Shown: positions 13,638 through 63,305 of the stretch, in pieces
Position numbering within the stretch: position 1 is the first letter of the stretch
Layout: every line of letters begins with the position of its first letter
Origin: Tubiluchus corallicola
Taxonomy: Eukaryota; Priapulida; Priapulimorpha; Priapulimorphida; Tubiluchidae
Length of the DNA stretch: 64,000 nucleotides
Direction of reading: 5' to 3'
Assembly (NCBI GenBank): GCA_030141605.1
Contig: JAQGDQ010000073.1
Span: 248,001 to 312,000 of the forward strand
Made by a program: the position numbers and the translations under genes
The notes under the pieces: generated by a model
The model's input: the letters and a program-made list of their open reading frames with translations, nothing else
What the model was told of the DNA's origin: nothing
Databases searched by the model: none

Positions 13638-13925
13638 GCAATTTTTAGCCCAAATAACAGTTTAATGTGTGAAATGTCCTTGAACAGAGACTTCTTAGGA
13701 ATTATAACAGTACAGTACGACAAACTGGTCTTGATAAAGCAGTCAAATCAGTAAAACACGCGTCAAATCACAATTTTGGCTTAATTATTGTTTTTTCGTT
13801 AAACTCTAGTAAAATTTAAGCACCTCACGGCCAAAACTCTCTTATTTTGCCCCTTTTTTCCACTAGTATTTAAATAAAACTTTCAGTGGCTTTATATTCT
13901 CCAACCATATAGTCTTTGTTGTGAT

Positions 13926-21636: not shown

Positions 21637-22560
21637 TACTGGTATAAGAGATAAGCTTCTTAAGTGGTTCCGTTCTTTTCTTACTCATCGTTTCCGACTT
21701 TTTGTTAACGGTTTAACCACTGAATAGGCGCCTCGTTATAAGTGGTATCACTCAAGGAATCTTGAGTGGCCCATACTGCTACCTTATTTTTATAAGTGAT
21801 GTTACCGATTGTATTTCCCCAGGGACTAGCATGCCATTATTTGTTGATGATTTAAAGCCCTTTCGTCCAATTTGGGGCCGTCTTGATCGTTATATTTTAC
21901 AACATGACATGGATGAAATTTTAGACTGGTGCAATAAATGGTTGATGACACTTAAACCCAGTAAATGTGCTTTACTTAGAATATGCCCTAAATCAGTTAC
22001 ACCTTACTTTCTAAATAATGCTCAAATAGCTGAAAAAAGTTGTATCAGAGACTTGGGATTAATGATTTCTAATGACCTCAAATGGAATTCCCATGTGAAT
22101 CGTATCATTATTACTAAAGCAAACCGTTGTATTGGCATGATTGAGCGGTGTGTGATATCGAGAAATGCAGCAGTAATTATTCCTCTCTATAAAGCTGTTG
22201 TTCAACCCATTCTGGAATACGTGTTGGTTGTATGGTCACCCCAATATGCTACTCTCAAGAATGCTCTTGAAAGAACTCAAGATAGATGTACTCGTCTTGC
22301 TATTGATTTGGATCCCGCTTCAATTTCTACTCTTGAGCAAGGGTGTGAGACTGTAGACCTTGTGAACTGCTTCAAAATAATTAGTGGAAATACTATTCTG
22401 ACTGAGGCAGACTTTTGAGCAGACGTTTTTCCAGGCCTCACAGAGTTCTTCGAAAAAAATTTGTTTCTGTCTTACCTCATGAGCTCAAAAGATATCAGAA
22501 AGAAGGGAGGAAATATTTTTCTGCAATTTTTTTCTTTAAATCTTTGTGAGCGTTTAAAGC
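21637..22560 (+). mobile_element. LINE reverse-transcriptase relic (CR1/jockey-like)
   Basis: The relic starts with GIRDKLLKWFRSFLTHRFRL and VNGLTTE, then a stop and a frameshift, then the degraded motif B GITQGILSGPYCYLIFISDV. Motif C is reduced to LFVDDLK. The connection domain (LDWCNKWLMTLKPSKC, IRDLGLMISNDLKWNSHV) and C-terminal part (ALERTQDRCTRLAIDLDP) follow in one 218-codon frame. Standard LINE reverse transcriptases have QGSVLGP and YADD here, so this copy is inactive. About 150 bases of 3' sequence are shared with 48184-48330. Confidence 0.85.
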
Positions 22561-23396: not shown

Positions 23397-23469
23397 TCAG
23401 TAAGTTCTCATCCTGGATTGTGACTCCTTCAAGTTTTCTTGTGCCTGGAAAAGTGTGTCTGTGATTTCA
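23397..23469 (+). promoter_or_regulatory. probable ZDHHC6 5' leader
   Basis: The frame of exon 1 is open from a TAA at 23401 to the ATG at 23470. An upstream ATGTCA followed by GTAAGT (about 23394-23405) could be a separate first exon or leader splice donor. No TATA box or other core promoter is evident. Confidence 0.3.
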
Positions 23470-26400: not shown

Positions 26401-29400
26401 AAAATTCTTATTCAGTTTTTTTGTTATATTTTATTTTGCCTAATATAAAATAAATATTTACCAAACATTTATGTATTATACATTGTCAGAATTGCAATGG
26501 GAAAATCTCTGATGCTATATTAGGCTATACATAGTGTATCATTGTACATGTAAAGACTACATTTATTTTAATTTGTGAATTTATGTACATTAAGTGTGAA
26601 TTATTTGATTGTAATCGTGATTGTGCATAAATCAGCTTCTCATGGCAACTAACAACACTGTTTTATTTATATAATGTTAACTGGATAATTCTAGTTTTCT
26701 TTAACCATGTGTATATTTTATTGTAAGGTATTTTACTTCAGTATGGGAAAAACTGTAGAAATTTCCAACAAATGGTTTTAGATAACTGTTATGTAGCATT
26801 TGTATTTGGTGTAACATTTTTCATGTTTTATTCTGTTTTGTTTAACAGCTTGTGTTTATTTTAGTCTTATTATATATTCTATCATCGTGGGGAACCTCTG
26901 GTCTCACTTACACTCTATGCTTTTATGGGTTCCATGTTTGCAGCTGGCTTGGCTATTGGGGTCATCATTGCAGTGGGAATACTATTATTTATACAGGTAT
27001 GATGTTTTTTTATTTGCTTTAGTCGTACATTGATAATTACCATAATTACCATATTGATAATTGACAAAGTTTACCATGGCCTTTTTATCCCATTAGTAAA
27101 AGAATATCTATTTTTCATTTCTTTTTAATAATTAGACAATAGACTTTATTCAAAAGTAAATTTTTTCAGTTCTTGTCATGCATTCGGGTTATTATTTTTT
27201 ATGGTCCTTTCTTGTATTTATCCAAAAGCTATTTTGCTTTTGTAATTGTTTTTCGTCTATTACACTTTTTATAATAGAAATGGTCACAATGTCCATTTTT
27301 TTGATAGCCACTTTGTGTTTTTTGTGTATCAGCAGGATTACTGCTGCTTCTTTAGACTAGTGATTTTTGATGTCTAAAATTTACTTTGCATTTTCTTACA
27401 TGACAATGTGCATATGAGCATATTTTGTAGGCATGTAATTCTTCTTATTTACATGCAAATACAGATGTCAAAAACATACATAATATAATATTATAGCTTT
27501 TTTGTGTTTTAAATGAATTATTGTTTTCAGTAAGTGTTTTTTTAAGTACAATAACATTTAATTCAAAAATCTCACAGCAAAAGTTTTTAGTGGTAATAAT
27601 ACTCTTGCAGTAATGGTAACAATCAGTTAACTCATTTATCTTTCTAGCTAAAGTCTGTGATAACAAACAAGACTGGCATTGAACAGTGGATAACGGAAAA
27701 AGCACAAAGATTTGATTCCAAGGAGCCAGAATTCATATATCCTTATGATCTTGGCTGGCATGCGAATATCAGCCAAGTGTTAGGTGTTCTAAGCTCACTA
27801 TGTGTGGAGTCTGGTATGCCGGATGGTGATGGCATCTGGTGGCCAATCCGAGATGGTTGCACACAATTTACTTTAACTGTAAGAATTATGTGCGTTAATA
27901 CGCTGTACCTTCCCGTGCACAACATTGTTTTCGTATGCACTGTAGATTTATCTACCTAAAGTATAGTAAATATAATAACATAAGATAAGATAAAATAAGA
28001 ATTTTTATTCCTTTTGGTGATCACTTATCACAATTTCATTTGGCTCATTAAAAATACAATACTGAAATAAACATATGAAAAAATACAAATGTACCCAAGT
28101 TCAAAACAATCATGAAATGAACTAAACAGTCACCTGTGGTTTCACAAGCTTTGCTTCTTACCACCATGAGCATATTTGCCAATACCTTACCTTAGACCTT
28201 AGTCCTTCCTGCGCATTGATGCACATTGGGCAGACAGCATTTTCCACTGAGTTCTATCGGCGGCTTCGTTCTCTACGTTTTCCCAACGTCTGTTGACAGC
28301 TCGAAGGTCTTCTTTGAAGGATCTGCGCCACGTTGTTTTTGGCCGACCTCTTTTTCGTTTCCCACCAGGTGGTTCCCACTGTACTGCTGTTTTGGCGAAG
28401 CGACTTTCTGATAGACGGAGAATATGTCCAGCCAGTTTCATTCTTCTCTCTGTAACTATATCTTTTAACCGCAATGACTGCGCTCGTTGAAGAACTTCTA
28501 CATTGGTGACATGGTCGCGGTAGGAGATTTTTAGTATCTTTCGAAGGCATTTTTGGTGGAAGACGTTCAGTTTCTTTGATAACTCCGCTGTGACTTTCCA
28601 GGTTTCGCTGGCATAGAGAGCCGTTGGCAGCACAATGGCGTTGTACAGACGAAGTTTGATTTTCATGTCAATTTTCTTGCTTGTCCAGATTTTTCCCATC
28701 TTCCTAATTACTGCTGTTGCTTTGCCGATTCTCCCCCTGATGTCATTTTCTGTACCTCCATTACAGGTCATCACACTGCCTAGATATGAAAAACTGGTAA
28801 CGTTCTTAACCATTTGGCCTCCCACTGTTATATGTACATCATTCTGTTGGTTTGTCCACACTTTCAAAACTTTGGTCTTTTCTTGACTAATTCTCAATCC
28901 AATTTTTCCCGCTACTTCTTCCATACTTGTGGTCAGTTGTTGCAGGCTTTCTTTTGATGTTTCCAGAAGAGCTATATCGTCAGCAAAGTCCAGATCTGCC
29001 AATCGTTGTTGTTGTTTCCATTGCATTCCTAGATCTTTACCATCAACCGCCTTGTTCATGATGAAATCAATCGTCAGTAGGAACAGGAATGGCGACATAA
29101 TGCAACCCTGCTTAACTCCAGTTTCGATGGCGAAATACTCGGTGTTTCCCTCTTGTGTTCTTATACAACAGCCGCTGTTTTGGTAAAAGTTCTGGATGGT
29201 TGAAATGAATTTCTGTGGGATACCATACAGAGAAGCAATTTTCCATAGAGACTGCCTGTGAACAGAGTCAAAAGCCTTCTTGAAATCAATAAAATTGATT
29301 AATAAGGGCTGTTGGAATTCCATACATTGCTCAATGATGTTTCTGAGAGTGAATATCTGTTCACAGCATGATCTTCCTTTTCTAAATCCAGCTTGTTGTT

Positions 29401-31046
29401 CTCTTAGTCTTATATCAACAGCATCTCTCAACCGATCTAGCAGCACTATACTCAGGACTTTTCCAGGTATAATACCAGTAGAGTATAATTAAACGACACA
29501 TCGTAGAAACTAGGAAACTGATTGTCACTTGAAGTTAGCATTGAATTGTCTTACTGCACTTGGAATGAGAGTTCAGAAATCTATTTGTTTTACAAATAAG
29601 GATTTTATACTTGCCAGAATTCAGATTTTCAAAATGATGCAAGAGGGTGAGTTGGGTCATTTATCAAACACTTTCACTTTTGGTTGTTTTTCCCTTAAGG
29701 TACGTTTAGTGTAGGTCCTGGAGTACCGCAGGGCTTTCCAGCAATACCAATAATTTTATTTAAAAGATGGCATCATTACTAAAATTCTGGTTCCACACAA
29801 TAATTACTATGTATTTGCTTTTTAGGCTGGTACATTAAATGATGTCATTTGTATACAACTTCTTGTAGGGTTAAATGTATATTTCATCGAACATTAGGTT
29901 AGTGTTTGTTACAATCATCAAAACATGCAGTTCTGAGTTAGATTTTTTTATTACATTTGGCATTTTGCAGTTTTTAGTACAGTTCATTGCTAATCTTTAT
30001 CCTACAGATCGAACAAAAAGCACAAAAAGAAGAGAAGCGAGAACGCTCAATCACCTACACGATCGTAGAACCCTACAGCGGTGCCTTTTTACCTGTTTCC
30101 AAGGGGTGTCGAATTGTTTGTAGCATTCCATATACAGATGAACCACGTATTCCACTGAAACCTGGGGACGAGGTGTCTGTTACACGATGGAGAAGGTTTG
30201 TTTGTTATTTATCTGGTAAGGGGATAAAAGGATAGCTAAGTGGTGATGGTGTATATTTAGTGATTGAAGTTAAGAAATGTCAACCTGATTGGATTGGTAA
30301 ATGGATAGGTGACTACCAGAAAAACTATCTAGGTTATTTCAACTTCCACACTGCCACGTGTATGTATTTTATGAAGGGCAGTTAAATACCTATTCAAATG
30401 TGAATAAGGCACGGCTGTCAATTCACTGTTTTACCTTAGAGCAATATCTTTGATAACCAAAGTGTAGTTTCCTGTCTTGTCAAACCGTTTACATTAATCA
30501 TGCTCTGGCATTAAATGTTCGATCCTAGCTTAAGCGGTAATAAATGAGCTGACTGGTTATTTCTGATCAACTAATCAGTTAATTACTGGGTAGTTGTAGG
30601 CGTCACCTCTCCGTTTAGTCATTACCGAACGTACTGAAACTACCCAGCTTTATTAAAATTGCAGAATTCCTTTCTATTCCAAAATTTAAAGTAATCTGCT
30701 CAGTCTTTAGCAATATTTAATGGCCCATTTTTGCCTTCTAGTACAAATTACAACTGTGTCCTTGTCATCTAGCTTTTCTTTGCTGGTTTTTCTCATTGAA
30801 CAAAAATCGTAAATATAGTACACGTATCCAAAAAACCTGTTTTCATTATTATTACTAGTCGTTATTGTAATCTTTATCTTATTGCCTCGCTTTTACAGAC
30901 ACTGGCTGTACGGTGAGAAAAGGGTGAAGACAGACAATTCTGTTCTACCTCCAAAAGGCTGGTTTCCACGGCGATGCGCTGTAGAGCTAACTGCTGATGA
31001 CTGTGATCTTTCAAAACTGTCCAAGAAGTACAAAAAAATTAATTAA
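23470..31046 (+). CDS. ZDHHC6: ZDHHC6, ER-resident DHHC palmitoyltransferase with SH3-like domain
   Basis: Seven exons, phases agreeing: 23470-23712, 24837-24928, 25855-26011, 26865-26996, 27648-27878, 30008-30195 and 30899-31046; 396 residues (human 413). Order: two N-terminal membrane helices (LLHWGPLLALSVITM and GFVHMTVFLGWNFLTLF), then the Cys-rich domain (YCKICEGYKAPRSHHC to RKCDRC), DHHCPW at residues 118-123 with catalytic Cys121, then two more helices (residues about 139-160 and 190-208) and a cytosolic SH3-like C-terminal domain ending WLYGEKRVK and KGWFPRRCAVEL. The last four residues KKIN are a KKxx ER-retrieval signal, as in human (KKNR). The enzyme S-acylates ER proteins in vertebrates, for example calnexin and the IP3 receptor. 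The three cysteines that human ZDHHC6 uses for regulation are replaced. Met 23470 is the first ATG in frame; upstream splicing could add residues. A 1.3-kb LINE sits antisense in intron 5. Confidence 0.95.
27975..28140 (-). repeat. probable LINE or SINE 3' tail
   Basis: On the minus strand this ends in GGAATAAAAATTC followed by TTATTTTATCTTATCTTATG, a simple-sequence tail of the kind that closes CR1/L2-like LINE 3' ends. Coding remains are too poor to classify. It is next to LINE copy 2, in ZDHHC6 intron 5. Confidence 0.3.
28181..29480 (-). mobile_element. LINE copy 2: long open reverse-transcriptase frame
   Basis: The element is antisense to ZDHHC6 in intron 5. Its frame is open for 415 codons from the first ATG (29446-28199) and stays open upstream through a PGKVLS motif to about 29480, where it is truncated. 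Visible reverse-transcriptase motifs are AGFRKGRSC, motif A FIDFKKAFDSV, motif B GVKQGCIMSPF and motif C FADDIALL. The C-terminal part ends GRPKTTWRRSFKEDLRAVNR and a W/DR-rich tail. There is no endonuclease domain in the copy, so it cannot move by itself. The 3' end has the same TAAGG-type tail as copy 1. The absence of stops and the near-identity to copy 1 mean both inserted recently. No clear target duplication was found. I place it as RTE-like with low confidence. Confidence 0.92.
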
Positions 31047-37303: not shown

Positions 37304-40300
37304 CTAGCGGCCCCTAGCTTGATAAGTACCCCTCCCGCCACCGCGCCCATCTCTGGAAATTCCACCCCGACCACGACCGCCCATCATGCCCCTGGGGGGG
37401 CCCATACGTATACCACTTCCGGGTCTTTGATCACCAGCTCCACGACGGTCGTCCATCCGCGGCGGCATTCGTGACTTTTTCTCTTCAATGTTAAGACGAT
37501 GATTTCCACGAAAAAACTTAGGTGGCCTCTCTGACAAAGCCTTCTGCACGGCCGCCTCATCTTCAAAGATTACAAACCCATAGTTCTAGAAAAACATAAT
37601 TATTTAAAAAGACTGTGAATCTTACAGTGCTAATTCAACAATCTACTTCAGACAGAACAGATTCTACTATAAAGGATTCAGACATCGTTACTGTGAATAA
37701 TTATTGCCCGCTTTATGAAACAAACACAGAATGTGCGATCACACATACAAGTGTAAAGCTGTCAGCAAGTTACACAGCTTAACAGTACCAGAACTAAACT
37801 TTAAACTTGGATAAACTTAAAATTATCTAAGATTGGATAATTCCATGATTAGGGTGAATGAGGAACCTCAGGTTTCTTTTCAACAATCGTGACTTTTCAA
37901 CAATAGTTAAAGTACACAAAGAACATGGAACATAATAATTTACTCCTGTTGAATTTAACACAAACAAAAAAACAGACAGAAAAAGTTAAGTACATGGACA
38001 CAAACGAGCCAACTAATTAGCTTACAATCACTAAAATATAGGTGCAGAGTGACTCAAACATAGAGATTTGGATACATTATATCACAGTGTATATAGCAAC
38101 ATTGTTCTAAAATAATCACATATGATAGTACTACTGCACTATTAAACTCACAGAACAAAACTTTCGAAGAGTAATAACTTTAAAATTAAGTATTAAACTA
38201 CAAAATTGTAATACAACAAGCTGTTTGGTCACCAAAAAAGATTTTTTACAAATAGTTTTGACGCTCCTAAATTAGCTAACTACTATAAAAACAACCACCT
38301 AACTTAAACCTGCAATCAATGTTCTTTAATCCTTATAAATACACATTGCATAGCTATGAGCTATTTGCTCTGAACTTACCGGTACTGTAGGCCGCCCTTG
38401 TCCAGTTTTTGTATTTATTTTGATGTCAATAACTTTACCATAATCTAAAACATAGAAACACTGTGCGATAACTATCTAATTTCCATAAAGAGTTATAATT
38501 AATTAATTAATTAATGAAACTAATATAAATTAGCAACTTCACACTGATTTTAAGCTCCAAAATCTGCTTTAAAACAGATATTTTAATTAAAAATCAAACC
38601 AGTGAAAGTGAGAAAATCTTCAACTTGCTAAATAAATAAATACAAAAGTGCATTCAAATTTTATCGGGGATTTTATTTCATTCTTTTCACACAATTTGTA
38701 ACTGTCACAAATTTGATGAAATCGAGAAATTCACACTATAGAACACAATTTCACAGACAAGCACACAAAACGTAACGCACACTATCAAAGCACTGTTTTA
38801 CCTTCCCAGGTATAAGAAAAGCTCATTTGGTTGTTGCGACTGGTATTATGTAAGCCAAGCTAACCTATATTATTTTTTCACAAGAGAAGCTGCACTATTT
38901 GCACTCTCGAATTATTTATGCATTTCTGCCTGTGATGCACAAATGATAATGAAATCTCGGGAAGGAGTATACAATTCCCCACACAATTTAACTACCCTAC
39001 CCTAAATCTAATCACAATCTGCTTCTGGGGGGAACCACAATTACCCTACCCTAACCCTAATCCACTTCTGGAACTAATTCCTTATGTGTGGGGAATTGTA
39101 AACTTTAGCCAAATACTGCACTGTTCATTACCTGAGCAATCTACTCTAGCAGTTGTACAAGTGCAGTTCCGGAAACACTAATCAATTAAACTCAATTTCA
39201 GAACACTTGCAAGTTCTTTGAAATTAATTACATTCCCATGTAATTGTCTTAGTATGAACTGACTGCAAATTCATTTTGCAGGCATGTGGCTTTCCGCATT
39301 TGTGTTTGATCCTGCGATTCTATGATTAATCAAACCCTGATCTGTGTAGTTTGTGCTCCCTGGTTTTATACTTGTAACTTAACAACACTCACAAAGTTAT
39401 CAAGCTTACAGCCAGCATGCAAACAGGGTGCAATGAACACACATTTTCATCATCCAAACTGAACTCAATTTTTTTAAGCTTAAGAGCCACCGAACCGAAT
39501 CTTAACAGAATGATCGGCAATGTTGCTGAACCGAACAATTAATCAAAACTGAACCAAATTTTTTGGTAATTCGAATCGAGAATAATCACAAACTCTGTAA
39601 CGATCTATCATTTTAAGTTAGTGGTGTTTGGTGAACAGTGTAAAATTTTTCTGATTACTACGGAAAGGATTATTCAGGGAAAAAAATTGTTGAGCTGAAT
39701 ATTCAATGCATTCCTTAGTACATCCTAACATGGCTCCACAAGTATTGAATTTTGGGCAGCTGCAATAGGAAATTCATTAACAAAGTAGAGGTAAAACGTT
39801 ATTACGCTGTAAGCGATGTGTATGAAATTTAAGATTCGGCAAACTAAATCCACAACATTGATACAAATTTAAATACAATTGAAGTGACGTTAAAGGGACT
39901 AACTTACATTCAAAATGCTGTTTCAGTTCATCATCCTTCACTTCTTGTGGTAAGTTGCCGACGAACAACTGCTGTGTGTCCGGGTACCGAGAAATAGCGC
40001 TCATACCTCCACCACCAGGTGGTTGACCTCCCACAGTACTGGCAGGCACACCGATACCTGCGCGTTTCTCTACACTGCCGCCTGGAGTGCCATCACCGTC
40101 TCCTCCTGTGAAGCTACCGGCCCGCGAACTCGGTCCTGAGGATGAAGCAGTTACAGGACCAGCCATGCCGCCTCCAGCCATACCTGCAGAAAAAATGTGT
40201 AGTATTAATCGAAAACAAAGAAAGATAGCCTTACTGTTATCGCAAACTAATTATTAAGAAAGTACAGAGCTCCAAAGTTTTATGTAAACCCAATAGACAT

Positions 40301-43300
40301 TCAGTATATTATCAGTCATTTCAAAAAAATCATAAAGCAACCAAGCGCTGTGGAGCAATGGACTAAGAAATAATAATTACAGAGTAGAGGAGAAGTGTTA
40401 GTGTTCAGCACTAATAATAACTAAACAGTCAGCATAGCACTAAATGAGCTGTTTAAAATGGACGAGTGAAAACAGGAAAATGCCTCTAGACCATTTTATC
40501 TGTCATATTGCCTCCAGCATGGTGGGTCAATGTTCGAATGTGGCTAAGATACAACAGCCAACTACATATCTCATCTTAAATATAAAGACAAACCTTTTCT
40601 TGCTAAATATATATGTTCCCGTCCTGCAAACAACAGTCAACAACATAATTATGTAGTTCCTGCAAAATGCATTCTAAAATCTCACAGCAATGATGCTTCT
40701 TGGACCAATGAAAGTGTATTTCAAATTTAGCCGATGGTTGTTCCCAGACCAAATATGCCTAGGCGGAACAGCTACAAAATGCTTATGGTATAAAATCAAG
40801 TCGGTATTCCCTATAAATTTCATATACAACCGTTAAGCTTCCACTTTTCATCTCTTTTAAAGCAAAAACTACCAAACCATGCCTAACTTATGCTATGGAT
40901 TATGGATTGAACAGGCCATGCAAAAGCGGGCAGAACATTCCAACTACTGAATTTACTACCAGCAGTGAAATATAGCTCGACTCACATTCAAATAGAATCT
41001 AAAAGGTCTGAAGCATAAGAAGTAGAACTTTCTGGAGGTCTCAAAATAGCTCATTTAGAAATGGAAAATTAATGCGAACTGTACAGTTTGAAAACCACTA
41101 ACATGTTTGTAATGACATAAAGACTAAGAATCTTCTATTTGGCATTATAATGCCATGAATACATACCTCCTCGCTGACCGTAATTCATTGGGCCACTAAC
41201 TCTGCCTGATCCACGCATTGAACGTGGTGCCCTCTGTGGTTGCGGGGCAGAACTAAATGTAGCAGCGTCCTTCACCAGGTCAGGCTGGGGTTTGGTCGTC
41301 GCAGAAGCAGGGACTGATGGCTGCTGGATCGTAGATGGTACTGTGAAGTTCATGGACTTCGTGCTCGCCATTTTAGCATATGTCTTCGGCCCCTGGTCTT
41401 CACCTGCAAAACAATCAAACAAAAGTTATAAACTAGCAGTAAGGCTGTCAAAAAGGAATCCAAGACCAGAGAAAGTAAAGCCACTACAATTGTAGAAAAA
41501 TATTTTTTACCAAACTGAACGCCTTAGCTGACAAACTAGAATACTTCATTAAACATATGAACACAACTCAGAGTTCAAACGCCAAGGTTTTTCACTGCAT
41601 TGTAAAAGAGTGTGAAGTTTCAGACCCAGCAAAAGTCTAGGTATATTCTACATTGGATTTCAGAGCTAATAGCAGGAACTTAATCAACCAGGTAATTTGG
41701 ACAAAGCCATCCAATCAAAGCTGAAAAACCACAGCAAACCAGTGGTTGCTCATAGCTAAAATTACTGGGGGTGCTGCTTCAGAAAATCTTTAGCCATTGT
41801 TTTAATTTTGTGTAAACAAACAAACATATGTAATTTTAATATTGTAATTGTAATTTTAGACAAAGAAACAAACATACTAAAGTTTGTACATAAACTTGAT
41901 AAACTCCTAAACAAAAAAATATTTTTTGCTTACTAATAGCCTAAATTGTCGCAGTCCAATCTGTTCACGGTAAGCACGTGACAACTGACAACAAACTGTG
42001 CGAGCAATAGCACTTTCTCTACCTGGGCTCAGACATGTGAGCATGGCCGCATGTGCACAACAGCCAAACACCACATTCTGGAGCGCACTGGGCTGAGCTG
42101 TGAAGCAAACAGTACTACCCTCACATACTCTGGTTCCGTACAAGTATAAAGAAAGAACCAAAGAAAAGACTCATTTCATTGAATATTATCGATAACATCG
42201 AGTGAAAATACGGGGTGTTGTAGTTCTATAGTACTTATACACAAGCCACCAGTGCTGCAAATTTTCAAAGTTTCAAGGCTTTTTTATAACATTCTACAGA
42301 ATTCAGGTGCACATAATCTTCACCTGTTGGCTCAGACTGCATTTCCCCAGTAGCATCTTCCATTGGAGGCACCTCTTGCTCAGCCTCTGGCTCTGACGAC
42401 ACCACGTCGTCCATGGTTTCCGTGGGCTCAGCCTCCTCAACCAGCTGCTCAGGTTCAGCATCATCCAACCCTGCAGTACCATTAGTCGTTGGCACAAGCT
42501 CATCATGCTGATAGTACTGAGCCGGAGCTACAACTTGATTTTGTAAGTTGTTTTCAGTTAGGCCTTCCATATCCGTCTCGGCTGAAAATGAAAACTCAAA
42601 TCATTGCAAACAAATAAATCAAGAAAGCACAAATTGCTGATAACAGATAAAACGAGTAAGCACCTTGGGCCAACAAAATTACAAAACAATATAGAATACG
42701 ATCACTTCAAAAAAGCATAAAATCTGAGATATCTGTACAAATTTTCGTGCTTAAACCATGCACCAGTATGGTTAAACTTTGCTTACCAATTAACTGCTGA
42801 TACAGTGAAACAACTTCAGAGAAAAGTTTACAGTGTGATCTTTAGCTTAAGTTTTTCAGTAAGGACTGCAGCTGTTAAGCATGCTTGCAAAGTTTCACAA
42901 AGCAATTTAGATATAATTTCCAGAATACTTCTTAATTAAGGCCTTAAATTCGTATATTTTCAGACGAAAGTAAAATGTAAATCAAAAAGTTTTACAAACT
43001 GTGTAAGAACAGCAAGTCTAGAGATATAAAAGTCAAAACAGGAAAAACACACCAGAGCATAAAGTTATGTCAGAATTTTTAGATCTCTTTTCCATTTAAG
43101 TTTGGCAATATAAAATTGTAAGTAAAAAAATATGTATAAAAATGAGAATTTAAATGTCCATGTTAAAAGCATTTAGACAGCAACACAAAAAAACTTTAAA
43201 AATCAGGTATTTTTCACTAAAGTGCAAGCAATAACAAACTGAAGATGATGTTTGAGTAGAACGATATTCCAGTATCATGTAAAAGTGCATGTACAAATAC

Positions 43301-46300
43301 CAAAGTCTGTGAACATGTGGTCCTTACCTGTTACAGTGCCAACATCATCAACTTCACTCTCGTTATCATTGAAAACTTCGTCTTGGTACCGAAAGATGTC
43401 ATTGTGCACATAATACTTTTTCGGGGATTGCGGCGCCAAGACAAAGGTTTGCATAAACCGTCTCATAGGCTGTCCGTTGTTCGACAGCTCACCAGTCACC
43501 TGTATGCAGGAAAACTTTCTTATAAAAACCAACCTTATAAAAAAAGAAAGTTTGGTATTTCTTTCCTGCATTAAACATTGCTGAATGTAGAAATAAATCA
43601 TTTTTGAGATTTCGCTATTATTAGCAACACAAAATCTACTCTAAGCTATACTGTCTTATCACTAAAAAGTTCACTAAACCACTGCAAAGAAATTACAAGT
43701 GCCACAAACTGAGACACCAAAGCAAATGTTGTGCAGGTGTTATGGCTATTTTAAGCTATTACTGGGCTGATGTAATGATGCTCAAGGGACAATTTTTTTC
43801 ATACTACATTTCCAGCTTCTACCGTTACTACTTGAACTGTGAAAACTGTTTGGCTCTTTTGTTTGCAACTGATAAAAAGGGCACCAATTTTACTTTGATT
43901 TATCTTTGAACAGCTCTGACCCACTTCACTTTTTATCGGATTTATGGAGCTATTTAAAATAATTACCTTTGACAAGCTTTGTCCAGAAACTTCTTTATTT
44001 GCTGTAGGAGTGCCATATCAGTACTCGCAATATGCGAAAAAGATGTAATTTGAACGCAATAACATTTCATTCACTAACTTAAGACCTGGACACATCTTAT
44101 AAATAATTAGCAACTTTAGTATATACAAAACCTGGATGTTTCACATTACAGGCAAAAAACTAACAATTTTTAGCACCATATGAAACCCGAGTAACTGCTG
44201 TGTACCTGCACCACAACACCATTGCTAAGTGTAGCGTGACTGTCCACCTGGCGGATTTTGGCGTGGCAGTCTCGAAAGTTCAACTGCATGATTTTCTTGT
44301 GAATTTCCTAAATCCGAAGAAAAAAGAAATAATAAAAAATCGGTAAAATCTTGTAAATTAATATGTGTTAAATTCAATACACACATGGTTAAAGTTTAAT
44401 CAATTGAGCAAGATAATGTAAGTCAAGCAGCTGCTGAAATTAAAAGTTTCCATTTGGAGTCGAAATGAAGTTAATGAAGTTGTAGTTAACAGGAAACAAT
44501 TTCCAGGTAAAGAATTTCACAGAATTATAAGGGGAAAAAAAGAAGCATCAAGAAAGCTTTATGTCACAGCAGACTTTGATAAGAAAGATTGCAGGGTTGA
44601 TCTCCAAAACAGAGCTGATGATAGCATTTTGCAATTTACCAAATTGGTATAAATAAGGGACTGGGGCATCAGCATATGTGCAGCTGCAGTACTCCAAGGA
44701 AGAATAAATGATAAAATAGAGTATGGTACGATATGCAAAAGATCTGATTTTGCACTAGGCTTTAGATGCTGTAGTAAGTGAGCTAATTTATGATTCGTAC
44801 CTGCTGCCCTTGTACTGGTTCCTCCTCCTTTCCTCCTTCATCAATGCTTCCATGAAGAAATAATGAGTTGTGACTATAAAACCTAAAAACAAAAGACAAG
44901 CATCCATAAACACTAATGGTCTAAGGATCAGTTCTAACTACTTATCAAGCTTCTGTCACCAATACTTCTAATAAACAATTTTACAAATTTGGTTAACACT
45001 GACGTGTACAGAATCAAAGAAGAATATAAAAATACTACAACAAAATCTCAGCATGAATTCCTGTAAACAAACTTGAAAATCAAAAATTAAGACTGACAGT
45101 ATACTTCTACATTCACACCCCATCAAAATGTGTGTGAAACAATCTTGAAACAAATTTAATCTGTGTGGCAGAATTTTGGAAAAGTCTCATTTGAACCAAT
45201 CAAGTTTATGTTCAGTCAATCGGAAGGATATTAATTTTACTGTTTCTTATAATGTTAATAAAAGGGCACGTCAATGCTTTTTATTATAATATACCAGCAC
45301 AAGCTGAAATAATAATATACAAAATTTGTCCTCACATATCCCAATTCTAACACATAAAAATTTGTTCTTTAGTGATTCAGTTCTAATTTAAAGAATTGGT
45401 TGAAACAGACCATATTTAAAGCTCAGGTTAAAGCGTCGTCATTCCATCATGTGCAGTATAATGACAGCAGGCATCTGTCGCTGACACACGAGTTTCAGAC
45501 GCAAATTATATCATCATAGCAAAAAAGTAGTTGTGAAATAAAAAAGATGCAATGATAGGGAAAGTATAGAACTGCTCAATGGTATGATTAATCATTGAAT
45601 ACTGGCAACATGTAAAGTTGAAAACATTAATAATGTAAGGTAGATGATAATTATTAGCCCATACGACAAAACTGTGCAAGCAGAAAAAAATTGATTTTGT
45701 AGATATAGGAGAGGTGAACCTAGTTGGACATCTGAAGGGTTAGAAACATCTCTAAATGAACATTTGTGGATAAGTAAAAATGAAAGTTTTGTTTTTACTA
45801 AATAATGTGAACTAATTGACACTTAATAGGTTCATGTGTGGTAATAACAAACCTCTTGTATAAAGAAGGCCTACATTAGGACACACTAATTAAGACAATT
45901 AAGAAAAACTATAAATTTTAATGTTTTTTGCAGTACCTCAAGTACTTTATATAAATTATTATCAACATGCGTATTGACAGCTTATTTAACCTGTAAAACT
46001 ATCTTACTACCTAAGCTATGACATCAATTTTATAGAAGATCTGGTGATTTATTCGATAAGCTATTACTGTTAAATTAATCAGTAATTGTGATGGTCAACA
46101 ACAAAAAGCTGAGGCAAGTAAACAGCTATCAATTACGTACTGCAATTAAACAGAGTCACAAGCTTTTTCCTTATATAATTCCATTCATTTCAGCTTTCGA
46201 AGAAAAACCGATATAATTTATGCCGAAATTTCCTTCACCACTAATTAAAATTCAGATCTAAGCTATTTTTCAGAGAAAGTTATTGTCCTTTTTAACTCAT

Positions 46301-52813: not shown

Positions 52814-55800
52814 ATGGCGCTCTGTCGAAAGGAATTTTGGTTAACTTTAGGGCAATTAACTTGCGGAAGTTTAAAATTGCTGACTAAAAAAGGCCAAAAT
52901 GATTGCAGGTGAATGTACTCATGTATATTAGTATTTTATTTAGTAATTTGTTAGGGGGGCACCACTGAGAAGTTAGGTTTATGCATAAATCTGTTACGTT
53001 AGACTTATTATGTTAGAGCCAGGATCGGTTTGACATTGACAGTGAGAACAGCAAAAAGAAATTTTGAACGGAATATCTGCTACGAATCGAAAAGTAACCG
53101 CAAAGCTTTCTGGGCCTACATAAGCGCCCATATGATCAAAAAGGAGGGAGTGCGACCACTAAATGGAGCAGATAATAATACGGAACAAGAAAGGGCTAAT
53201 GAATTACAGATTTTTTTCTTCTGTTTTTACACATGAAGACGTAACTAACATTACTCAATTGCCACCAATTACGGAACGTATGCTTGATGTGCTTTAATTG
53301 GAATTACGTACTAAAATCAAATGCATGAATTTAAACACTGCAGAGGGACCAGATGGCATACATGCTAGTGTTATAAAGAAGAACAAACACTGTCTAATTT
53401 ATCTTATGCTAGTATATATATATTATAAATCTAAGTTTGGCAGTGGGTATTTTACCAGCAAGCTGGAACTGTGCATATGTGTCTTCTATTTTTAAAAAAA
53501 GGGGATCGGCAACTTGCAAAAAATTATATACCTGTAAGCCTGACTTCGGTTGTCTGCAAACTGTTGGAAGGAATATTAAGGGACAAGATTTGCGACTATC
53601 TTACAAAATACAACAATAAGCGGCATGGATTCTGGTCAGGAAGATCATGCATAACCAATATTTTGCAATCACTAAAAGAATGGGTAGGTATACTTGAATT
53701 ACCATGGCGAAGTCGATGTAATTTACTACGATTTGCGTAAAGCATTTAATACAGTTCCCCTTTTAAGACTACTTAGTAAGCTAGAGGCATATGGCATTGA
53801 AGGACAATGGATTTATTAACATGGATTGGAGCTTTTCACTGTGTGAGGAAACAATGTGTTATAGTAAATGGTCAAAAATCAGACTGGGCGGATGTCATCA
53901 ATGATAAACCTCAGGGCAGTGTTTTAGGACCTGTGCTATTCACGATGTACATTAAAGGTTTTCCTGATATCTTTACCTGTGGTAATAGGTAACCTCAACT
54001 TAACCTCTATCCTTCGACGATAACGGTAACGGTAATAAAATCGCACAATTATATGAATAAAAAAATTTCTTGTAAATGATTATGTTTCGAAAACACACTA
54101 GTTTTGATCTTCAGGTTATCATAACATAATAATCTAAGAATTCCAAAATTCAAATTCAAATTAAATCTCAACATTTGGTAATGTGGAAAACCTTTTTAGA
54201 CAAGAGTTAATAATTAGATGCATGCATGTGGTCATTATTTAGACTTGATTAATTCTTAATTATTCAGTTATTGTCAAAGAAACTTAACAAATAAAGGCTT
54301 TTGCAGAACGATTGAAATGTTCTGGATTAATATTATAATTTCATCTCTACACCACACTCAATATTAGAATTACCTGCAGCATACATTTAAGTGTGTAAAC
54401 TGCAAATGAAACAAGTAAGGGCATATTTAAACTTTTGTATTTCTAGGATTAAGACCGTATTGTCCATGCAATTAATTTTTGTATGAAACTGTCTCGCAGT
54501 TGCTTTTCTAAGCTACTGTTTCGATTCGTTAGTCAACTGATAACTGAGTGTGTTTGTATGGTTGTTATTTATTATCATTTAGATGCCTGTTGAAGACCTT
54601 TAAGGTTGTCACCTTTTTCAGAAACAAAAATCAAGAAATTTAAACCACAAAGTAGTACAAATTTCTTGATTTTAGATTCTAAAAAAGGCCTAAAACCCTA
54701 AAATTTACAAAAGTGCAAACCGTGTACATCAATTTTTTGGAATTTCTTCCCAGTCCCACTACATTTCTTACGTTTTTGAGATTTCTGGAGATAGATGGTT
54801 AATGTTAAAAGAATTAAAATTAAACCGGAAGAATAGCTGCATTGCAGTACTTGCCGCTGCAGCAAAAGTTTGGCGAAAAATGTAGACAGCATTAAATGAT
54901 GAAGCCACATAAGTTTACTATTTTACCTTTCTGCTGTTTTAGCTTGGCTGTAATGGTTTAATAACATGCAAAATGTATTTCCATGTTTTCCACTTGAATT
55001 TTAAAGTGATGGTCAAAATCAGGCAAAATTTCCGAATTTTACAAAAATCCGCCTGAACTACGCATGTATGGCTATATTTTAGGAGACTCCACATCAAATC
55101 AGGAGCGGTGGCAACCATAAAGACCCTGTGTGGGTAGAAAACTAGGCTGTTTTTTATTTCGTACTGTGCTGGTAGACTTTACTGTGCTGTAAAGTTTACT
55201 ATAATAGTAGTATACTTAGCTGCAAGCGGGTTTGGAAATTATAACACGAGTCTTCTATGAATGTACCACAGAATAGTTTTTATGAAGAAGAGATATGGTA
55301 GAAATTATTCCTTTCCGTCTGAATGTATGGGTGGCTGAATAATGTCACAATTATCTGTTATCCTTAGCGCTTCATTTACTGTGTGAAATTGCAAAACTTT
55401 TATGGCTTGCTTACTTTTATTTCAGTTGATTTGTTAAAATACTTATTGATTGTAAAATGATCAAAATTTTGCATAGTAGTGGATTTCTGTTATAAAATTT
55501 TTCAAGTCAAATTACTTCAGTACTAAGCATATATAGTGTTGCATGTGTTGCACAATATTAAAATGATTATACACTATGCAGTTTTTACAGTTAACTTTTT
55601 TTGGGTGGTAATTTCCACTATAATTGTCATTTTGGTGCCAAAAGAAAAGTCAAAGCAAAAATTCATTCAACTAAAGGGAGTTTTCAATTGTTTCTTTTTC
55701 ACTGAGCTGCACTATCCTTGGAAACTTTGTTCTTAAAAACATGCAGCAGAATAAAAGCAATCAATGATTTATGGTTACTTATAGAGCGCCTGGTGTTGGA

Positions 55801-58800
55801 AATGACACAGCTTATGGAATAGCTACTGTACATGATTTTAATCATCCCTGGTTTCAAACGCTTCTTATGTTCACAGGTAAATTGTTCCTTTTACATTTGT
55901 TTCTTTAAGTAAACAGTGACATTGCTTTTAAAATATGATGGAACAGGATTAGCATTACTTCACAATTTAAGTGGGATTACTAGTACAAGATTTTGCATCA
56001 CTTGAAGGGTGAAATTGCTTTACTATTTGTTTAACATGTATTATCTGTTAGTTAATCATCAATTATCTGCAGCTTGCTAAACCATCTATCAGATTCGTTA
56101 GAAATAAACTGTTATACAAGCAATAATTTATGTAGTTTGTGCTACTTTAAAAGTCTGCACAATTTGCTTGGGTCACCTTGTGGCCTGTCAATTTTTTTAA
56201 GGACTTAAAGGGAGACATGAACATTTTTCATGTACTACCCCATTTTCAAGTATGATCAAAAGTATACTATAACACCAATTTAACTTTAAAAGTGTTTTCT
56301 AATAGTTAGCATTTTTCATGTACTACCTGATTTTCAAGTATGATCAAAAGTATACTATAACACCACTTTAACTTTAAAAGTGTTTCTAATAGTTAACATT
56401 TTTCATGTACTACCCCATTTTCAAGTATGATCAAAAGTATACTATAACACAAATTTAACTTTAAAAGCATTTCTAATAGTTAACTAATAGATTAAAGCAG
56501 TGGTTTTTCAACCTTTCTCTGATGGGGACCCAATTGCCTCAACTGCCCATGCTGCACGACCTCAACTATTATTCGCTCAGGGTAATCGCCCAAGCACAGC
56601 AGAATAATTCAACCATTCAAAACTAACTTTGATACTAATTAAGGAGACCACTGACAAATATTTACTTTAAAATGTCTTACAAAAGTTGTTTAAATAATAA
56701 CAGTTGGTTAAAAGCAAGATTCTGTGCAGTTTTATGCAGTAGAGAAGGTTGAGTTTGCTTTTCAGAGACCAACTTCCTAATTCGAGGTGAGGTAGCTACC
56801 AGTGCCAGAATCATATCGTGTTCCAATTGTAATTGATTTCTGTATTTGTTTTTGACAACTACCATAGTAGGTAATGACTGTTCGCATAAGTAAGATGAAG
56901 GATGAATCATCAAAACTTTGATGAAATGTCTTGCCAAGGTTGGGTATGAAGGGAACATTTTAAGCCAGAATCATGGCAGTGAAAGGGACTGTGCAAGAAC
57001 CTTCGCTCCTTTATCTTGCTGCAGCTGGACAAGCTCTTCCGAGCGATATCCTTCTCAGCAGAAAGTGGGTTATGTGGAGCTTTGAAAGGGTCATGTTACA
57101 CTACAAAAAACTGCACATCCAGCTCAGGAAAGTACAGTATTCAAACTTGTTATTTTGCAAGAAAATTGGCAACTTCACTATGTTTGCATTGCGAGATTTC
57201 TGAATGCTCTTTTGGACAAGCAACAGGGTGAAACGTTTAGCAGCCACTTTTTCTTTTAGTAATTTTAAGGTTGCCAGACATTCACTCACTTTATCTTTTG
57301 AGTGTAGGGAAGTTACTGAAATAGTACAATTTTTTTTTACATAACAAACAAATGCCCCACAAAATTCCCTTTCGGGGTTCGTGACCCTAAGGTTGAAAAA
57401 CCACTAATTAAAATCTTAATTAACGTTGAGCCCAACTGCTGATGATAAACATAATTTTCAACAGCAAAAGTATTCCATGAGTGTGTTTCACATGTTTGTG
57501 GCAGCGAAGATTGAAGTACGGTGGTACTGTAAGAGATTCAGTGTGTTCTACTAAAACTTGGCAAGTTTTAAGATAAATTTTAAATTTACTGCCGTGCTCA
57601 CGCATGAACTTTCAAACGTGTGTACCACAAACAAACACCTAAATTGAGAGGTGCAGCACCTGTTTTTTGTGTTCCTAAATACAGGGGCTAGTGCCCATCT
57701 AACTAACAAATGGCAAAATACACGTAACAGCAAAAAACTAGTGGTGTGAACTCGAAATTGCATTTGCGTTGTACTAATTCGTTCACATAAATCATTTTTG
57801 GAAAAAATGCTGTTTTCCCTTTCAATATTTTAAAGAGTAGATTATTTTGACCTACAGTTTAATATTGTTTAAATTATTTTATAGGAGAGATGCTGTGTCT
57901 GTTCGGTTTATTCTTTGTTAAGCCTTACCGTCAACGAGTGCCCACCAAACAGATAAATGTAAGTTCTTTGCTTTCTCCTGTTATTTGTAATATAGTTAAA
58001 GCTGATGTCATATTTGTTTTACACTAGAAACAGCTGCATCACTCAATGCCTTTATGGTATAAAGATTGTCCGTAAGACCCAAACTGCCCTTTGTTCGCTT
58101 TCTTGTTGATATCAAACTGTTAGTTTGGCATATTAAATTTGGCGTATTTATACTACTGAATTTTATGTAGCAGAACTGTTATTTACTATAGGACGGATAT
58201 TATAGTTACTATATTAACTTTGTGTGGCTAATATTGTTAATAATAGAATTAGCTGTTTCTGAGAAATACGAATAGCTAATGAGCAACTAATAGTGTTTAG
58301 TTAGCCCAAATATTTTGCTTTTTAGAAATATGGAGCAACGTCAAATTCATCAGTTGATAAACCACTACCTGTACAGCATAATACCAGGTAAAAACAATAA
58401 TTAACTATACAGTCTTTGATAGGGCTTGTGCAATGACACTAACATATGTGCACATAGAACAATGAGAATGAACTTTTCACAAGATCACATTCTTAAGGTA
58501 GGATTCCATGAGCAGGCTATGCGTATGTGATCCGTTGCGCATGACACATATTGACGGTGAATATTGTGAATTTCCACTTCTGTGTACTAACAAAGCTCAT
58601 GCCAATCTTTCTGCCATTTTTGATTGCTGTTCGTAAAAAATGGAAATAATTATTTTGGAAGCCATGTCTTTATCAACATTTTAATGCAACTGTGATCAAG
58701 AAATAATAAACTGTGATCAAGAAATAATCACTTTAGTGGCATTAGCTATCATTGTACTTCCAAATGGAAAAATTTGAAAGAAAGCACGGATTTTTGGGTG

Positions 58801-61800
58801 CATAACGTTTTGCAGCAGGGAGAACAATACAGCATGCATCACTACTTAGTGAAGGAATTACACAGGGTATAGGTTAGGAAGTTACCAAAACTCACATGAC
58901 CAGGAAGCCAGTCGTCATCAAAATTGGTAACCAGAAACTAGAAAACTCGCTAAATCACGTAGGCAATGACAGTTTCCCATCTGCGTAGCTGCGTGATGGG
59001 TACTTCGGTTTATAGCAATCACACATCCATCAGTACTTTGTGCAGTACATGGAAACACTTCCACATATTTAAATACAAACTGTTTTATATGTACAGTACA
59101 TCGTGGATCACGCATTATACATTATGCATACATGGAGTTCTACCTTTAAACTAGCATTTTTATTTTGCGTTCACTGACTTGGCACCCTTGTCAAGACATG
59201 TGCAGTGACAGCATGCATTTAGCTGCTGAATTAATCACTTTCATACTAAGAAAGATTTTCATAAAAGCATGTGAATAATGCCTGTGTTTGTTTTTAACGA
59301 ATCAATGGGCATGGCTGAATGAATGGCTTTTTGATGAATGAAGCCTTAATTGGATAAAACTGTTCTTGAGTCTCTCCATTCTGCATTTCGGTAAGGGGTA
59401 TTTGAGCACTTAGCATGTGAAATACCCTTTACCTAAATGCAGAACAGAGAGGTTCAAGACAGTTTTATCGCATACTGCTTATTAAATTTTCAGTCATTGA
59501 TTCAAACTCATAACATATATGAATACAATGTGACTGGAAATAACCCCAAATTCTGTTCCCAAACCTTAAATAAGCAAAAAATCAAACATCATAACGTGAT
59601 CTAGTATTCTCAATTTGTTTTTTAAATGGTTTCCAAAATCATAGATTAAAGATAAAACATCTTTACATAGACCATGTTGCTGTTTTATGGCTGTCTATTA
59701 CTCCAGGCCCTTTTCCTTGCCTCGTTTATTTTGCCACTGTGCCTGAGCTCATGGTACCAATTCAAACACAATAGCCCTGTGCTGAAAAATTAACTTTAGT
59801 AAGCTAAATTTTGAATGCTAAATATTAAGTTCTGATTGTTAGATGTGTCCCATTTTACGAGGTCTTTCAATTTTATTTAAAACCAATTATTATTAGTTGT
59901 GTGGTAATGATTAATTAGCAATTGTTTATCAAGTGATCAATAAAAGTTCAGCATTGCTAGTACTGTCCTATGTCTTTCACATCATCTGTCGGGAAAATCT
60001 CCAAAGGTTTCCCACTCTATTAGCAAGTGATCCACTTTTTTGGTCCACTTACTAATTTTATCACGTAATTGTTGATTTGTGCAATTGATTGCACAATATC
60101 CATCAAGGTTTTTTCCGTTAAGACACATTTACTAATGGCTAGAAATATTTTTTTGTTCTGATACAAAGAAAGGATTATGGCACTTTCGTTAGCATAGACT
60201 TTGTTTCAGAATAATTCAACTTATTCTACTTTTACCCACCATTTGTGACTTAATTGCGACGTCGTTTAGTGGAATTGCGCTGGTTTATCTGAACTTGTCT
60301 GTGAAGCAGATATTGAGAGGCTCCAATATTATTTTCACGGGTATTTTATCTGTAAGTGTTTTGCCTATTGTTTAGAAATGGCTATTTCATTTATAGGTTT
60401 TTTCTTATTGTATTAAAGTGGTTAGATCTACCAACTGTTCATTTATTTAACTGAGTATTATTTCAGAATAATTCAGCTTGTTCTAGTTTTGCCCACCATG
60501 TGTGATTTAATTGCAACCTCTTTCTCCGGAATTGCATTGGTTTTTCTCAACGTGTCTGTGACTCAGATAATAAGGGGCTCCAATATTGTCTTCACGGGTA
60601 TTTTATCTGTAAGTTTTTGGTTTGTTTCTCGTTATTTGGGTAATTTTGTTTTCAGCAAATTTGTCAGTAATTGTTTAATTAACTGGTAACAGAACACTGT
60701 AAAATTTTGGTACAGAGCAGTAGTGCCCATGGTGGAGGGATATTCTAAAATTTACTGGGAAGATTTTGCAGAACTTTAATACAGGAACCTTTATTGTATG
60801 GCTACCTGGAGACATTTTTCTAATTATAATCTAAGAAAACTAAAAGTGGTTAGCAATGTTTCAATCAGGAAATTTCTTGGGTGCTCCTATGACAGCAGTG
60901 CGAGACTAATAAGAACCAACCTTAATCTAATATTTTTTGACATGATACACTGTAAACATGCGTGAAACTTGTTTGTTAGAATGGAACAAAGTGATAACTA
61001 TGTTTGTAAAGATATTGCTAAAAGTGATGCATGATTTACTTCAGAAATTAGATGCATGTGGCGCAAGACTCAGTTCAGTTATATATTTTTTAGGAATGTG
61101 CAGCTATAGCTTTTCTTATAGCATATAATCTCATTATGTTAGAGATTTATATTTTTTGCATGTGTGTGTTTATTTATTTATTTATTTATTATTGTCCTTA
61201 ATTTTTTGTATTCTTTGTGTGTTTGTATTTGTAATTTATGTTGTCTTTTTTGCCATGAACTTATGTTTGAAATAAAGTATTAAATCAAATCAAATGCAAG
61301 ACTACTAATAAGTTTTATAAAATGTTACTAAGGAATATAAATACAAATGTAACAAGACTAGTAAATGTGCCAACATAATTTACTTGCAAAGTGTTTACTT
61401 TGAAGTCCAGTATCTATGTTTCAAAGAATAAATAATCTGTGTTATTATTAAAATTTCTTGATATCTTGTGTATGTTTTTCTCTACATCATTAGAAACAAT
61501 AAGCACTAGTATTTGTGTTTTGATTTTTTTCATAGACTTTTTTGAACACGTACATGATGTTACTTTAATTTTGTTTCTTAGAGGATATTTCTCAAACGTC
61601 AACTGCATTGGTTCCATTGGCTTGGCATGTTACTGGCTGTACTCGGAATAGCTGTGGTTGGGTTATCTAGTATTTTTAATGTAACCAACATGCACAGGTC
61701 TTCTGAAACTGCCATAGGTATATAATTACGTGCAAGTTACAATTAATATCATATACAATAAAGTTTTGTTCTCACGTGTTAATTGTTAGACATGAGGCGT

Positions 61801-63305
61801 ACTTTGTGAAATTGTGAGACCAGGGTCTCTTCTACCATTAGGCAAACTAGACGGTTACTCGGAGTGCCAATATCTGGAAGTATTTCTTTAATTTATAATT
61901 TAGCCTAAGTAATAACATAGTGCACACTAATTATTTAAAGTAAACTAGTTACATTATTTTCCCATCAAAATTTATGATTCATGGATGCTAGGAGTGTCTT
62001 TCTGCAACAAAACACTTTCAACTTTTGCTTTGTCTGGTTTTCGAAGATTACATCATTTCATGCAAACATTAATTACTGAAGAGTTTCTCTGTTTTTGCCT
62101 ACAATTTCTATTGTATTCATATAGAGCAGCAAAGCTATGTAAGTGTTTATAGTAATGGGCCTTCCATTAATAAAAAAAATTCTTATGCTAGCATTTAATT
62201 AATTATGTTAGATAAGCCCATAAGAATCGAAGTCTTCGAGAGCGGAACACAGGAAAAAAAACGTAAAAAGGGTGTGGCAACAATGAACAGCAAAAAGATT
62301 TGCCAGTGGAGTATTTACAACTAGGACAAAGTTACGGATGAATCTAGTGAAATGGATGTTGTTAGGGTTTCAAAAATTTTGTGATGGAAAAGCTAAGGGA
62401 AAATCTAGATAAGAATAACTATGTTCTTGAAGACCCATGACATACAACCGTGGTCATAAATTCAATCAACACAATCTGTAGATAGGTAATTGACTACACT
62501 TAATTATTAGTGTATAATGCATGTACATGTATCATAAGCCTCACACACAGGTACTATTTATACTTTATTATGTGATTATTTATTATTTTTAATAATACTA
62601 TTAAATAATAATACTACTAAAGTATTATTAATAATACTTTATTATTACAATTGAATGTTATTGCCTGGTGCCTATTACACATTTCTGCCTATTGCGTAAA
62701 ATTACTTAGAGGCGGCCCTGTGTAAGATATCTTACTTAGAGGTGTGAAACTTAAACTGGCCTTGCTGTTTGTGTCAGCCTATTCAAAGTTAGTTGTGATT
62801 TTTGTGCTAAAATTCGAGCTGAAATATTAGTCAAAATGAGAAAAAATAATAATTATCCTCCTAAGCTACTTTAAATTTCATCTGTAATGTTGTTATGATG
62901 TTTTTTCATTTTATTCTGCAGATTAAATGCCACAGTTCTATGTACAAATTCTTTCATTATAGTTTCCGTTAGTTTTTTGTGGAAAATGTTTCCTTTAAAC
63001 AGATCATTTCCGTAAGTCAATTACTGACTGGTATTATAATTTTATACCTGCCTTTGGCAATTTTGATGATAAAAATAATAGTAATTTTTTGCCGAAGGTA
63101 ATTTACATTTTCACCTAAAAACCTCTTTCTATTTTTTTAAAGACAAGTTTTCTTCTTGTTTTCAGGTATTTTGTTTGCTCTCATGAGTAACGTTATAAGT
63201 GCTTCACAGCAGATAATAGAGGAGACTTTTTTGAAAAAGAGGTGCCTTCACCCTTTACATGTTGTGGGAATGGAAGGATTCTTCGGTGTTCTCTTGATGA
63301 GCCTG
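52814..63305 (+). CDS. SLC35F6: SLC35F6-like membrane transporter, 3'-partial, with an alternative exon pair
   Basis: Exons with agreeing phases: 52814-52908, 55785-55876, 57885-57958, 58326-58387, then either 60210-60351 or 60467-60608, then 61582-61717 and 63166-63305. This gives 247 residues; human SLC35F6 has 371, and the rest lies beyond the right edge. The start [20 protein letters not shown] aligns with the human first helix, but it is the least certain exon and is supported mainly by phase and pattern. Later parts are clear: [52 protein letters not shown], and [16 protein letters not shown], then [19 protein letters not shown]35F6 belongs to the drug/metabolite transporter superfamily; human SLC35F6 is reported in lysosomes and mitochondria. 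The substrate is unknown. The donor after 63305 (GTGTGT) is weak. Introns hold a LINE relic, a hAT relic and a minisatellite. Confidence 0.88.
53025..53996 (+). mobile_element. LINE reverse-transcriptase relic (CR1/jockey-like)
   Basis: Across several frames it reads [52 protein letters not shown], then [21 protein letters not shown] (motif A) and [12 protein letters not shown] (motif B). These are standard blocks, in order, of a LINE reverse transcriptase. Many frameshifts and in-frame stops make it a pseudogene. The catalytic YADD block is not seen, so it is 3'-truncated or decayed. It lies in SLC35F6 intron 1, sense to the gene. Confidence 0.88.
56223..56485. repeat. 88-bp minisatellite, three copies
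   Basis: Three direct copies begin at 56223, 56311 and 56398, each starting ATTTTTCATGTACTACC and containing AAGTATGATCAAAAGTATAC. The copies differ at few bases and by one-base length changes. It is in SLC35F6 intron 2, immediately before the hAT relic. Confidence 0.9.
56498..57406 (-). mobile_element. decayed hAT element with transposase dimerisation domain
   Basis: The ends are inverted repeats: CAGTGGTTTTTCAACCTT at 56498 and AAGGTTGAAAAACCACT ending at 57405. Eight flanking bases agree at six of eight (GATTAAAG left, AATTAAAA right), a decayed 8-bp duplication. On the minus strand, 56958-56677 reads [20 protein letters not shown], then [10 protein letters not shown], then NKYRNQL and [12 protein letters not shown]. 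This is the C-terminal dimerisation region of Charlie/ZBED5-type hAT transposases (CE-F/L-M, K-R--L). Upstream parts to about 57289 are broken by stops. About 900 bp remain, so most of the transposase is deleted. Confidence 0.85.
60210..60351 (+). other. SLC35F6: SLC35F6 alternative exon 5a
   Basis: 142 bp: one base completing a codon, then 47 codons ending FTGILS. It is bounded by TTTCAG and GTAAGT. It encodes the helix pair that corresponds to human LPPALCDMTGTSLMYVALNM and following residues. This version carries Tyr and Lys ([13 protein letters not shown]). Confidence 0.9.
60467..60608 (+). other. SLC35F6: SLC35F6 alternative exon 5b
   Basis: Same length, phase, TTTCAG acceptor and GTAAGT donor as 5a, from which it is separated by 115 bp. 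39 of 47 residues are identical. This version carries Phe and Thr where 5a has Tyr and Lys ([13 protein letters not shown]). Confidence 0.9.
60830..61305 (+). mobile_element. LINE C-terminal and 3'-tail relic
   Basis: In one interrupted frame it reads [20 protein letters not shown], then [20 protein letters not shown] and SEIRCMWRK, the pattern of the C-terminal end of a LINE protein (RKLLG---SA, R---SDN-I---I-SD, W). It ends with AT-rich 3' sequence and the tail AATAAAGTATTAAATCAAATC. It is sense to SLC35F6, in the intron after the alternative exons. Confidence 0.65.

Follow-up and report, generated by a model that had tools for sequence, protein, structure and literature searches.

A candidate pair of mutually exclusive exons in an SLC35F6-like transporter gene of Tubiluchus corallicola

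The transporter gene, its relatives and its surroundings

The window, by which we mean the entire stretch of 64,000 nucleotides analyzed, lies on contig C1897 of a 343.5-Mb genome. On the basis of homology and an open reading frame, a transporter gene was rebuilt on the plus strand from the sequence of the window together with the 10 kb that follow it on the contig (L003). As predicted, this gene has 11 coding exons per transcript and 432 codons, and its frame stays open to the stop codon with either of two alternative fifth exons, 5a or 5b. The introns are, in order, 2876, 2008, 367, 1822, (115), 973, 1448, 798, 796, 690 and 330 bases long, the bracketed value being the spacer between 5a and 5b. 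The exons were compared with those of a sister gene, which lies in the opposite orientation some 96 kb downstream: coding exon 2 (55785..55876, 92 nt) is 70% identical to its counterpart, exon 3 (57885..57958, 74 nt) 59% identical over 17 residues, exon 6 (61582..61717, 136 nt) 66% and exon 7 (63166..63305, 140 nt) 74%. Coding exon 1 (52814..52908, 95 nt), which begins with the putative ATG start codon, has an open frame and weakly resembles its counterpart in the sister gene (36%, E 0.023). The sister gene yielded no convincing match to exon 4 (58326..58387, 62 nt), which ends after the second base of a codon and preserves the reading frame from exon 3 into exon 5. Past the end of the window lie the remaining four coding exons, at L003 104-284, 1081-1163, 1854-1896 and 2227-2477.

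The predicted protein scores 45 bits against the Pfam TPT profile, which has a cut-off of 30, placing it in the SLC35/drug-metabolite transporter superfamily; its scores against the EamA, CRT-like and SLC35F profiles are below the respective cut-offs. The nearest solved relative by sequence is the CMP-sialic acid transporter 6i1r (E 6.4e-5, residues 110-311), and the seven other chains among the matches listed have E values of at least 0.13. Although they are the best solved relatives, the CMP-sialic acid transporters (6i1r and mouse SLC35A1) are distant ones, and the gene described here would be expected to carry a different cargo.

A search of the same genome with the whole protein, in which the best candidates were scored, listed 20 matches at E values up to 0.1, all of them on C1897 or C664. 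With the 5a peptide as the query, the matches listed at E values up to 10 were 5a itself, 5b (83%), the sister gene (C1897:404376-404513, 72%) and C664 (40%, E 0.64). In the exon 5 region, C664 and the window gene are 39% identical in a gapless alignment over 38 residues, 15 of them identical; a rougher stretch that runs into a C664 intron is about 32% identical. Given the gapless alignment, we rejected the notion that the window exon is three residues shorter than that of canonical SLC35F6. C664 reads ALCDM...SSFQMLRG, with AVIVFTG in the next exon, where the window gene reads TICDL..., and we take the C664 reading to be the canonical SLC35F6 pattern. Because C664 carries this pattern, it would be a canonical-looking SLC35F6, closer to that protein than the window gene is, and the window gene appears to be a diverged SLC35F6-like paralogue. 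The initial annotation had named the window gene SLC35F6, but a gene that appears closer to canonical SLC35F6 lies at C664. Both SLC35F6 and C664 belong by sequence to the same family as the window gene, which differs from them in being diverged and in carrying the exon pair. SLC35F6 itself is a little-understood lysosomal transporter.

Two observations concern the structure of these relatives. For exon 1 of the sister gene (C1897:397001-407000, minus strand), the donor appears to be of the GC type (GCAAGT), and in C664 (C664:9001-27000) an intron follows QMLRG, inside a segment that the window gene keeps in one exon.

Reverse-transcriptase-like frames, probably of the non-LTR type, were recognized by eye on the minus strand of the window at 505-1551 and 28202-29488, which have near-identical stretches in common, and on the plus strand at 21717-22415 and, inside intron 1 of the transporter gene, at 53000-53992. 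Intron 2 holds, again by eye, about three imperfect copies of an 85–90-base unit (56210-56480) that start near 'catttttcatgtactacc'. Three further frames may represent NUBP1 (10893-13661, minus), a ZDHHC6-type palmitoyltransferase (23404-23802, plus) and G3BP (39780-43640, minus). Past the window, degenerate CCCTAA repeats form a short interstitial tract, as judged by eye, at L003:9780-9900.

Anatomy and divergence of the exon 5 pair

Exons 5a (60210..60351) and 5b (60467..60608), both on the plus strand and 142 nt long, flank a spacer intron of 115 bp (60352..60466) and are alternatives to one another for residues 109-155, with Lys at residue 140 in 5a and Thr in 5b. They have the same phase, acceptors ending in TTTCAG and donors in which TCT at the exon end is followed by GTAAGT. 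After one split codon each, their peptides are identical at 39 of 47 residues, and the 25 base differences between the exons fall into 12 silent and eight residue-changing codons. Coordinates, lengths, signals and codon counts all reproduce those of the initial annotation, which had, however, described the pair as versions of one transmembrane segment; the alignment to 6i1r assigns to the exon parts of two helices, TM3 and TM4.

The two exon copies are 82% identical, as compared with 42% for their intron flanks (ungapped, 60 bases on each side). They are adjacent homologues of equal length and the same phase with compatible splice sites, the sequence features by which mutually exclusive exons are recognized. 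For the fly X chromosome, a match to a neighbor in length, frame and homology is reported for only 0.56% of the exons that are not exclusive (90 of 16,180 in a per-transcript count; PMC3228551). Judging from the sequence, we consider it quite probable that the pair represents a tandem exon duplication within an intact SLC35F6-like transporter gene that uses one copy or the other, and the pair is probably a real case of a familiar kind of alternative splicing. Human SLC25A3, the mitochondrial phosphate carrier, is likewise described as a solute carrier with one-for-one alternative exons (PMC5740500); it differs in belonging to another carrier family and in that its switch was shown with RNA, whereas the present one is predicted from sequence. 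A literature search, with supplementary tables outside its reach, returned no report of an exclusive exon pair in SLC35F6 and none of exon duplication with mutually exclusive splicing in nucleotide sugar transporters. A table of genes on splicing in human macrophages includes SLC35F6, with the type of event not visible there (PMC5352146).

The possibility that 5b is an assembly duplicate was considered and rejected, as a DNA search of the genome with 5a listed two matches, 5a itself and 5b. A nucleotide search of introns 4, 5 and 6 for a third or decayed copy of the exon gave only 10- and 11-base matches, and the best exon-5 frame match had an E value of 0.25, was located on the minus strand and contained a stop. 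Within intron 5, a 24-residue frame (60727-60798) is similar to the region around the exon 2-3 junction of this gene, with an E value of 0.02 in a tiny search; the likeness is probably due to chance.

Exon 5 occurs once within the 17 kb examined at the sister locus. The sister exon is 70% identical to 5a and 60% to 5b, and since each of the two copies is closer to the other than to the sister exon, the exon duplication is probably younger than the split of the two genes, provided that the signal has not been blurred by conversion or loss.

Between 5a and 5b, the method of Nei and Gojobori gives a dS of 0.556, a dN of 0.112 and a dN/dS of 0.20, and this ratio points to constrained divergence. 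Silent sites are saturated in comparisons with the sister exon. In none of 20,000 neutral simulations, each placing 25 substitutions at random on 5a under uniform substitution, were there eight or fewer replacements and no stop; the simulated copies had a mean of 16.6 replacements, and 58.5% of them carried a stop. Furthermore, 11 of the 25 observed changes are nonsynonymous, where about 75% would be expected (p = 0.001). When differences were assigned to lineages with the sister exon as the outgroup, those in silent and replaced codons numbered six and three for 5a, five and four for 5b, and three and four for the unassigned class. The binomial probability of so few changes in replaced codons is 0.011 for 5a (three of nine) and 0.051 for 5b (four of nine). 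Selection on both copies, which the codon counts had first been taken to indicate, is therefore upheld for the pair and for 5a, but is borderline for 5b alone.

The weaker result for 5b is what one might see if a single exon were used in practice, the other looking intact by chance or through low-level use while being lost. A local difference in divergence could be read in the same way: the last 33 bases of the copies (60319-60351 and 60576-60608) differ at two of 33 positions, as opposed to 23 of the 108 before them (Fisher p = 0.066), and conversion could be keeping one copy intact, although this pattern is suggestive only, whether of gene conversion or of a common splicing signal. We nevertheless regard the use of a single exon as unlikely, given a dS of 0.56 with the low dN/dS, the lack of stops in either copy, the matching splice signals, the failure of any neutral simulation to be as constrained, and the scarcity of nonsynonymous changes along the 5a branch and, to a lesser degree, the 5b branch.

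Reading frame, spacer and exclusive use

The exon length is of the form 3n+1, and an early stop is therefore encountered in any message that contains both copies or lacks both. Consistent with the earlier proposal that the frame enforces the choice, we computed that inclusion of 5a and 5b together makes codon 13 of 5b a TGA, at codon 168 of the protein, and that skipping of both leads to a stop at codon 131; in the two misjoined forms, the stop precedes several later exon junctions. Such messages should be degraded, and only messages with a single copy would yield protein. Because the single exon 5 of the sister gene is also 142 nt long, in the same phase, the frame rule seems to have been inherited and to be older than the exon duplication. 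A 3n+1 exon would become exclusive at once upon its duplication, the frame rule needing no further evolution.

The stops could also be put to regulatory use, with the joining of 5a to 5b or double skipping acting as an off switch that sets output through decay of unproductive messages. The early stops with several junctions downstream in both misjoined forms would suit such a switch, and so would a spacer that is probably spliceable, given a 100-bp intron elsewhere in the genome. However, a frame property that seems older than the duplication would not have evolved for decay, and eight replacements under constraint point to the use of both proteins; we therefore hold an off switch to be highly unlikely.

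The frame, the logic of which was computed, together with decay, which we infer, is the best-supported filter for the exclusive use of 5a and 5b. Among human clusters, 377 (60%) are reported to have exons not divisible by three, and joining reads are given for only 83 (22%) of these frame-breaking clusters (PMC5740500). Since joining reads occur in so few of them, an additional barrier at the level of splicing is, by analogy, likely enough here.

An alternative is that exclusion arises at splicing itself, from a branch point too near the 5a donor or from competing pairing of intron RNA. The spacer is near in size to the intron between the likewise duplicated OGDH exons 4a and 4b (118-131 nt in birds and mammals), where exclusion is reported to be enforced by branch points that in humans lie 25-41 nt past the donor (PMC7969005). 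The spacer has yUnAy matches at positions 38, 42, 56, 90, 94 and 99, counted from the 5a donor. The first two fall below the steric threshold of PMC7969005 and PMC5740500, which put the minimum distance between upstream donor and branch point at about 50 nt. Three or four AGs separate the matches at 38, 42 and 56 from the acceptor (four in the case of 38 and 42), as against one for those at 90-99. As the latter have one AG and then the acceptor, and as the AG-free stretch before the 5b acceptor is only 9 nt, 5b branch points at positions 90-99 are predicted to be likelier than those at 38 and 42, which would place them, in contrast to OGDH, near the 5b acceptor.

Myosin introns in the same genome, read from homology, measure 100, 128 and 141 bases. 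In light of the 100-bp intron and of likelier branch points at a distance of about 90 nt from the donor of 5a, joining of 5a to 5b is probably not prevented by the 115-bp spacer; the suggestion that it is short enough to hinder this step was thus not supported, and steric hindrance by a short spacer is not favored as the main cause. The AG-free stretches before 5a (10 nt, within 60180-60209) and 5b (9 nt, within 60437-60466) are the shortest among the 11 acceptors of the gene, the others being 16-44 nt, and may weaken both acceptors, an observation made after the fact.

Pairing of the spacer with intron 4 is somewhat above that of most shuffles, four of 60 being as strong, but its pairing with intron 5 is ordinary (36 of 60). 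The longest perfect complements of the spacer, 9 nt in intron 4 and 11 nt in intron 5, were equaled or surpassed in 83 and 13 of 100 shuffles, respectively. The signal for competing RNA pairing is thus borderline with intron 4 and ordinary with intron 5, and the perfect complements are not unusual. Although most human frame-breaking clusters are without joining reads, as cited above, exclusion imposed at splicing by the short spacer or by RNA pairing seems to us very unlikely, and we continue to favor a frame-based filter acting on a duplicated exon.

Consequences of the exon exchange for the protein

The helices were placed by alignment to 6i1r and by hydropathy, which is clear for TM3 and weak for TM4. 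In the alignment, residues 121, 125 and 147 lie opposite Tyr82, Asn86 and Lys108, and residue 140 lies opposite Tyr101. In PMC8411240, maize Tyr82, Asn86 and Lys108 are equated with mouse Tyr98, Asn102 and Lys124; since residues 82, 86 and 108 of 6i1r agree with this numbering, we take 6i1r to be the maize transporter. The offset of 16 between the maize and mouse numbering would then make Tyr101 the equivalent of Tyr117 in mouse SLC35A1, which is listed among the residues in polar contact with CMP-sialic acid (PMC8411240). A text search of the mouse structure paper PMC6508934 found zero occurrences of Tyr117.

Among positions 121, 125, 140 and 147, the isoforms differ at 140 only. The exchange of Lys for Thr at this position is, as initially noted, the single non-conservative change, the other seven of the eight replacements being conservative. 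The two proteins would thus differ at eight of 47 residues in TM3-TM4, one of them at a predicted substrate-contact position of the CMP-sialic acid transporter, and it is plausible that Lys140 and Thr140 tune substrate choice. In mouse, however, the double mutant Y117A+Y121A is reported to have stayed active, and the SLC35A2 counterpart to be dispensable (PMC8411240); by analogy, the counterpart of position 140 would tolerate mutation, which argues against a large effect of the swap. The likeliest role of the pair may be a modest tuning of substrate affinity or choice across tissues or stages.

SLC35F6 is described as lysosomal (PMC13382097, PMC11203873), and its reported ligand is UDP-GlcNAc (PMC13382097). 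A more specific reading, possible but doubtful, is that a lysosomal transporter of the nucleotide-sugar type toggles between a Lys140-positive and a Thr140-neutral pocket by splicing of TM3-TM4, thereby altering anionic cargo or rate by tissue or stage. The pair is a sound further example of a known exon class, with a functional hint that is better than usual: a natural pair of proteins with eight differences around a predicted substrate site, one of them strong, amounts to a ready-made experiment on recognition at that site.

At the equivalent of position 140, the sister gene has Trp and C664 has Phe, and both exon copies therefore seem to have left an aromatic residue at this position.
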